From an uncultured bacterium (GTDB lineage Bacteria > Armatimonadota > HRBIN16), in contig CALJAP010000003.1 in NCBI GenBank assembly GCA_938027655.1, positions 1 through 53,214 on the forward strand: a DNA stretch of 53,214 bases. Direction: 5' to 3'. Within the stretch, counting starts at the first letter, position 1; every line of letters begins with the position of its first letter. Position numbers and translations under genes: made by a program. The notes below the pieces were generated by a model. The model was not told the origin of the DNA, ran no database searches, and saw nothing but the letters and a program-made list of their open reading frames with translations. Below are positions 25,766 to 26,794 of this stretch, piece after piece.

Positions 25766-25795
25766 TTGACAAGAACGCCGCCTTGTGGCTATAAT
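25766..25795 (+). promoter_or_regulatory. Strong promoter of the leader RNA / HNH gene
   Basis: Exact TTGACA (25766-25771) and exact TATAAT (25790-25795) with an 18-base spacer. Transcription should start near 25802, about 229 bases before the HNH gene. Confidence 0.85.
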
Positions 25796-25801
25796 ACAAT
25801 T

Positions 25802-26004
25802 GCTATACTCTTTTGAGGTGAAGTGTTGCAACTCAGGTTTCGGCAACATAGCGTGAGCGAACTGCGTCTCATCCGGCGGTGGCGTTGCTGGGGAATGCCT
25901 GCGCAACAGGACAGGCACTGGCGTCACCATCGGTTCGGACACGTGATGCGTACCCGATATAGCTAATCGGTCAAGCCCGCTGCCGTGTCCGCAGTGGGCT
26001 TTTT
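25802..26004 (+). ncRNA. Structured leader RNA or small RNA upstream of the HNH gene
   Basis: This 200-base noncoding transcript lies between a consensus promoter and an intrinsic terminator. Helices I can draw are TGTTGC/GCAACA (25824-25829 with 25843-25848), GGTGGCG/CGTCACC (25878-25884 with 25922-25928, one G-U) enclosing TGCCTG/CAGGCA (25896-25901 with 25912-25917), and competing CCGAT/ATCGG pairings at 25929-25970. CGGACACG (25936-25943) is an exact complement of CGTGTCCG (25984-25991), which forms the terminator loop plus one stem base. This is how an attenuator or riboswitch is built, though a free-standing RNA is also possible. It does not match the riboswitch consensus sequences I know (TPP, SAM, cobalamin, c-di-GMP, c-di-AMP, T-box). 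Confidence 0.6.
25973..26004 (+). terminator. Intrinsic terminator inside the HNH leader
   Basis: AAGCCCGCTGC pairs with GCAGTGGGCTT (11 bp, one G-U) around loop CGTGTCC and is followed by TTTC. It stands 27 bases before the HNH start codon, so HNH expression from the upstream promoter needs read-through. Confidence 0.8.
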
Positions 26005-26030
26005 CGTTACCTGTGAACAGGAAGGGATCG

Positions 26031-26573
26031 ATGTTGGAGACAGACAGACAGGTTCTGGTATTGAATAATGACTACGAGCCGTTGAACGTGTGCAACGTGC
26101 GGCGCGCGCTGGTGCTCGTGCTGCTGGGCAAGGCAGAAGTGCTGCATGCTGACGGCATCCGCCTGCGTACGGTGGACAGGGTGATTCAGGTTCCGTCGGT
26201 GGTGAAGCTGCGCTACCACGTCAAGCGTCCTTTGCCAGAGCTCAAGCTCACGCGGCGCACCATCTTCGCCCGCGACGACTATACCTGCCAGTACTGCGGC
26301 TACCGGGGTAAAGACCTGACGGTAGACCATGTGATACCGCGTCGTCTTGGCGGTAGCGACGATTGGGAGAACCTAGTGACCTGTTGCCGCAAGTGCAACC
26401 TGAAGAAGGGCGACAAACCGCTGCACCAGACGGGGATGACTCTGCTGAGGCAGCCGCGTCGACCGCGTTACGTGCCCTACATCAGCCTCAGCAAGTACAT
26501 CGAGGGCGCCAAGAATGAGGTGTGGCGCCATTACCTGCCGTTCTTCAGCGACGTTACCCCTTCCCAGGACTGA
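26031..26573 (+). CDS. HNH endonuclease
   Basis: The 180-residue protein has an N-terminal segment typical of a widespread HNH group (VLVLNNDYEPLNVCNVRRAL) and a treble-clef HNH nuclease domain: RDDYTCQYCG (Cys86, Cys89), the catalytic DHVIPR (His100), the N of WENLVTCC (Asn114) and CRKCN (Cys119, Cys122). It probably nicks or cuts DNA; whether its role is defence, repair or housekeeping is unknown. The ATG follows AGGAAGGG. It stands alone behind the structured leader described above. Confidence 0.9.
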   Translation: MLETDRQVLVLNNDYEPLNVCNVRRALVLVLLGKAEVLHADGIRLRTVDRVIQVPSVVKLRYHVKRPLPELKLTRRTIFARDDYTCQYCGYRGKDLTVDHVIPRRLGGSDDWENLVTCCRKCNLKKGDKPLHQTGMTLLRQPRRPRYVPYISLSKYIEGAKNEVWRHYLPFFSDVTPSQD

Positions 26574-26587
26574 CCTCCGCAAGGGGG

Positions 26588-26794
26588 TCAGTCCCCCAGT
26601 ACTTCTTCTGCTAAATCGTCCAGCCCCAGTACGCGAACGGCATCTCCTTGTTTCAACCGTGCATCGTTGGTGAGGAACGCATCGCACCGATGTGTCAGCA
26701 CGGTCGCTATTTGCAGGGCGTCAGGCGTACGCAACCCGCATCGGGCACGCAGCTCCGCAGCGCGGACGGCCATGGCTCGTCGATTATACCGCAT
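26588..26794 (-). pseudogene. Remnant of a PIN-domain (VapC-like) toxin
   Basis: The 68 residues contain the C-terminal half of a PIN ribonuclease: LRTPDALQIATVLTHRCDAFLTNDARL, with the family's third and fourth acidic positions, and VLGLDDL at the end. The N-terminal half with the first catalytic aspartate is missing; upstream DNA goes straight into the hisF promoter, and no antitoxin is seen. An AGGAGG site exists upstream but leads into another frame. I call it a truncated, inactive gene. Confidence 0.65.

Follow-up and report, generated by a model that had tools for sequence, protein, structure and literature searches.

The stretch of DNA analyzed here (the window, 53,214 nucleotides of contig CALJAP010000003.1 from an uncultured bacterium of the phylum Armatimonadota) carries a gene for an HNH endonuclease (Pfam HNH, E 1.4e-16). 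Of 101 related genomes, 93 had an orthologue of this protein, and the gene is a core gene of the Armatimonadota. A 68-aa open reading frame on the opposite strand (26588-26794, minus) is convergent with it; this frame matched only the C-terminal part of a PIN domain and is possibly a truncated PIN gene. The features found upstream of the HNH gene are presented in Table 1. An earlier, sequence-only reading of this DNA had reported a consensus promoter and an intrinsic terminator before the HNH start, and both were confirmed. The stem of the terminator was retained in all eight members of the genus which have the leader (the window's genome counted among them), with one change on both sides of the stem.

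Table 1. Positions of the leader elements and the HNH gene in the window
Feature	Position	Strand	Remark
Sigma-70 promoter, TTGACA-18-TATAAT	25766..25795	+	12/12 consensus match; 11-12/12 in eight genus members
Shine-Dalgarno site GAGGTG of the leader ORF	25815..25820	+	AGGT invariant in eight genomes, directly 5' of the aligned start codon
Leader ORF, GTG to TAA (stop codon 25964-25966), 47 aa, VLQLRFRQHSVSELRLIRRWRCWGMPAQQDRHWRHHRFGHVMRTRYS	25823..25966	+	
HRFGHVMR motif codons	25928..25951	+	Amino acids invariant in eight genomes; 21 nt from the end of the last Arg codon to the terminator
Candidate competing hairpin TCGG..CCGA	25935..25957	+	Consensus fold of eight leaders; would sequester the octamer
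Octamer CGGACACG, complement of the terminator loop	25936..25943	+	Invariant in eight genomes
Small hairpin CCGAT..ATCGG around the leader stop codon	25954..25970	+	85% of cells paired
Intrinsic terminator: 11-bp stem, 7-nt loop CGTGTCC, T tract	25973..26004 (hairpin 25973-26001)	+	
HNH endonuclease gene, 180 aa, ATG at 26031	26031..26573	+	Regulated gene in the proposed model

The segment between promoter and terminator had been described as noncoding, a description which fails because the segment is filled by a conserved coding ORF of 47 codons with its own Shine-Dalgarno site. This ORF was shorter than the length threshold of the initial ORF list. In all eight genus genomes the frame was open and 45-47 codons long, every indel was a multiple of three, the start lay at the aligned position after the conserved AGGT, and the stop (TAA, TAG or TGA) came 6-7 nt before the terminator hairpin. 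Synonymous changes were in excess, with 93 observed against 62 expected (p 2e-5; 8 independent pairs, 5 families). The frame and synonymous-change tests, both made on sequence only, indicated a translated leader between the promoter and the HNH gene, and an intrinsic terminator was present after or within the leader ORF and before the target gene. The N-terminal half of the peptide drifts and was poorly conserved even inside the one genus; the C-terminal stretch around QQDxHWRHHRFGHVMRxR was conserved in the genus. No accepted match was obtained for the leader peptides against Pfam and NCBIfam. His and Arg were about as frequent at the C-terminal ends of the leaders as in the other frames, and attenuation by His or Arg was discarded as there was no clear enrichment. 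Amino-acid attenuators of the his/trp type have a run of codons for the amino acid which their own operon makes; the target here being a nuclease, the leader did not belong with them.

The arrangement of promoter, short ORF and terminator upstream of the HNH gene was found in about 30 families of the Armatimonadota. Conservation upstream of HNH orthologues, which had been set beforehand as the test by which a regulatory leader could be refuted, was therefore present across the phylum. A terminator-like hairpin lay within 200 nt upstream in 78% of 105 HNH regions (a few genomes being represented twice) compared with 10% of 259 control genes drawn from the window and 20 stretches of 20 kb. When a promoter with at least 9/12 matches was also required, these values were 53% and 0.8%, respectively. 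The arrangement was missing from part of the phylum (families f14, f19, f21, f10 and others), and the HNH orthologues of Chloroflexota and Cyanobacteria appeared by eye to be promoter-proximal without such a leader. Leader peptides were strongly divergent between families, with a weak L-x-x-LEDGF-x-H-like pattern at the C-terminus in several of them, as judged by eye. Leader stops overlapped or abutted the terminators whereas control genes mostly stopped more than 15 nt before theirs. This comparison carries some bias, since a stop close to a terminator was itself used to select the leader ORFs, except in the genus and the Fimbriimonadaceae; outside the genus, leader starts were guessed from the first start codon. 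The neighbours of the HNH gene varied from family to family while the leader stayed with it. Conserved gene neighbourhood was accordingly dropped as a clue to function, and because the other neighbours differ, leader and HNH gene can be taken from these comparisons to behave as a unit. The Thermomicrobiales orthologues (L129-L133, L164) had a different conserved element, GGAACCTGGTGCGAAGGT..CCGCGGCAACCCTGA..GCAGGGTG, in the last 100 nt before the gene, and a search with five of these loci gave no Rfam match at gathering.

In the Fimbriimonadaceae the leader contained the motif W-x-D-T-(I/L/A)-I-R, and the ORF passed through the terminator and ended at the HNH start. A stop between -25 and +12 relative to the HNH start was seen for the motif frame in 16 of an initial 19 sequences, compared with 4 of 38 other frames. 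The same stop window and the motif pattern from these first sequences were used in a follow-up test on the upstream regions of 85 family genomes. The species are related, and the counts of motif, frame and codon are not independent events: the strict motif was found in 26 of 55 new leaders with terminators and was not found in the other 29; its frame stopped at the HNH start in 22 of the 26 compared with 8 of 52 other frames (p 3e-9); and its last Ile codon was AUA (ATA) in 30/30, whereas the family's control genes use ATA for 4.8% of Ile. Third positions did vary in the motif's codons for Asp, Thr and Arg. In the new leaders 19-28 nt separated motif and hairpin, with 22 of 26 falling within 19-23 nt, and the 21 nt between HVMR and terminator in the window's genus agrees with this Fimbriimonadaceae spacing. 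In families f15, f20, f26 and f3, too, F-x-I(ATA)-R(CGN) occurred in leader frames; the window's genus lacks AUA-CGN and has ATG-CGT in its place. The sequence comparisons establish the promoter, the coding leader and the terminator, that these are conserved and that their geometry is fixed.

Two further observations were made on these leaders. An inverted repeat (CCGCC..GGCGG or a variant) was seen by eye directly 5' of the GAC-ACN-ATA-ATA-CGN codons in leaders L070, L120, L122, L116, L077 and L074. A second type of Fimbriimonadales leader (L113, L114, L118, L121) had W-x-TGSWF-like codons in place of WxDTIIR, 30-45 nt from the terminator.

We consider it likely that the leader is a ribosome-controlled transcription attenuator of the HNH gene, which would probably be turned up or down according to how the ribosome reads the leader peptide. 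Transcription is predicted to start near 25802 and to give a short mRNA encoding the 47-aa peptide, and the intrinsic terminator, 6 nt past the leader stop codon, would halt much of this transcription ahead of the HNH gene. A ribosome close to the end of the leader, whether near the codons for HRFGHVMR (AUA-CGN in the Fimbriimonadaceae form) or on the stop codon, would stand at or just before the 5' arm of the terminator, and its position when the hairpin emerges would decide between termination and read-through. Going by usual ribosome footprints, once the stop codon of the window's leader occupies the A site the ribosome would cover the first few nucleotides of the 5' arm, and in the Fimbriimonadaceae a ribosome continuing onward would traverse the hairpin into the HNH start. 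We infer that transcripts end at the terminator, that translation of the leader alters read-through and that HNH output follows. We think it more likely that read-through would require a ribosome at the leader end, with termination where translation is absent or lagging, than the opposite sign. The switch between terminated and read-through forms which had been proposed for this segment survives in that attenuation of the HNH gene is supported by promoter, leader and terminator across the phylum; its riboswitch-like, noncoding form was not upheld, as the conserved element is a peptide and the loop complement is not general. More tentatively, and with a probability well below even, the nuclease may hinge on how the fixed, rare AUA-Arg dicodon is decoded at a measured distance from the terminator, or on an equivalent pause caused there by the nascent chain, with its level set by the supply of tRNA-Ile2 (lysidine) or by translation stress, the family of leader peptides being specific to the phylum.

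The coding signal is real, and the short ORF might instead encode a small protein with a function of its own, such as one that partners or inhibits the nuclease. The terminator would then belong to this ORF, and read-through would simply give the HNH gene a lower level of expression; the weak C-terminal pattern common to several families also fits such a protein. We regard this small-protein reading as improbable, as the N-terminal halves are so poorly conserved, and neither the codon-level fixation of a rare AUA nor the constant spacing from motif to terminator where ORF ends differ would be needed for a protein acting in trans. The motif keeps its distance to the hairpin regardless of how far the ORF runs on, which therefore points to the position of the ribosome rather than to a trans-acting peptide.

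That the leader acts as a riboswitch-like noncoding RNA, with antitermination brought about by pairing of the octamer to the terminator loop, is very improbable for a segment that is coding. The complement of the loop which had been noted earlier is present, CGGACACG being able to pair with CGTGTCCG (25984-25991) 40 nt away, but a match of this quality was reached by about 2-9% of shuffled leaders in the window's genus, which is chance level. Octamer and loop were both invariant in the eight genomes, and the three wobble positions of the octamer never varied, whereas most neighbouring codons for conserved residues did vary there, which hints at an RNA role in the window's genus. Across families loop-to-upstream complementarity showed no theme (Fisher p 0.85) and was rejected as a general mechanism. 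Full pairing of a 7-nt loop over an 11-bp stem would also be sterically unlikely. As had been stated from the sequence, no riboswitch consensus was matched: an Rfam search over the window gave no match at gathering and the segment only sub-threshold noise, relaxed thresholds included, so that no covariance-model match placed it in an Rfam riboswitch or leader family.

The consensus fold did contain alternative hairpins, in keeping with an RNA switch. The TCGG/CCGA hairpin would compete both with the octamer/loop pairing and with the CCGAT/ATCGG hairpin. The latter was partly conserved, having two doubly changed pairs yet unpaired cells in some genomes; the alternative pairings that had been proposed for ATCGG and CCGAT segments were borne out to this extent, but the first ATCGG copy is private to the window's species, other genus members having ATCGC. 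The search for covariation gave a similarly divided result, with changes on both sides in the terminator stem (one) and in the CCGAT/ATCGG hairpin (two) but none among genus genomes in the octamer/loop helix. The fold of the segment was mildly better than that of shuffles (z -1.8) and its closing stem, GCTATA/TATAGC, was not retained in relatives. A search for antiterminators found these alternative hairpins in the window's genus and no general antiterminator pairing across families.

A guide RNA akin to the omega RNA upstream of IscB can be practically dismissed: the HNH domain did match the NCBIfam IscB model and solved IscB chains, but the IscB match was far below cut-off and limited to that domain, the 180-aa protein had only HNH families above cut-off where an OMEGA system has an IscB with RuvC together with HEARO RNA, no HEARO or omega RNA was matched in the window, and the segment is coding and has its own terminator.

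No prior description of the HNH leader was found in the literature (open-licence papers), and a phylum-wide leader-peptide attenuator before a widespread HNH nuclease is apparently undescribed. The fixed distance from motif to terminator and the frozen AUA codon offer a handle on the signal sensed by the ribosome, and hence on the role of the nuclease. Three known systems can be compared with the ribosome-controlled attenuator proposed here. In tnaC of Escherichia coli the ribosome acts at or near the leader stop codon, termination is Rho-dependent and tryptophan is sensed (PMC8429421); the HNH leader would share the leader peptide and the ribosome at or near the stop codon, but its terminator is intrinsic. 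The vmlR leader of Bacillus subtilis likewise has an upstream ORF and an intrinsic terminator, the outcome being decided by the ribosome, but uses a defined antiterminator and anti-antiterminator (PMC9226507), whereas no general antiterminator was found for the HNH leader. The closest worked-out design is, on our best reading, the bmrB leader of bmrCD in Bacillus subtilis, a 53-aa GTG-start ORF with an intrinsic terminator within the coding region and rare codons before the terminator. Efficient read-through there needs translation of the leader, and blocking translation lowers it; the target of bmrB is a drug transporter, and the response is to ribosome-targeting antibiotics (PMC4191407). A short GTG-start leader ORF, an intrinsic terminator and a rare codon before the terminator are common to both, but the HNH leader precedes a nuclease, belongs to another phylum and encodes different peptides; the likeness proposed is one of design.
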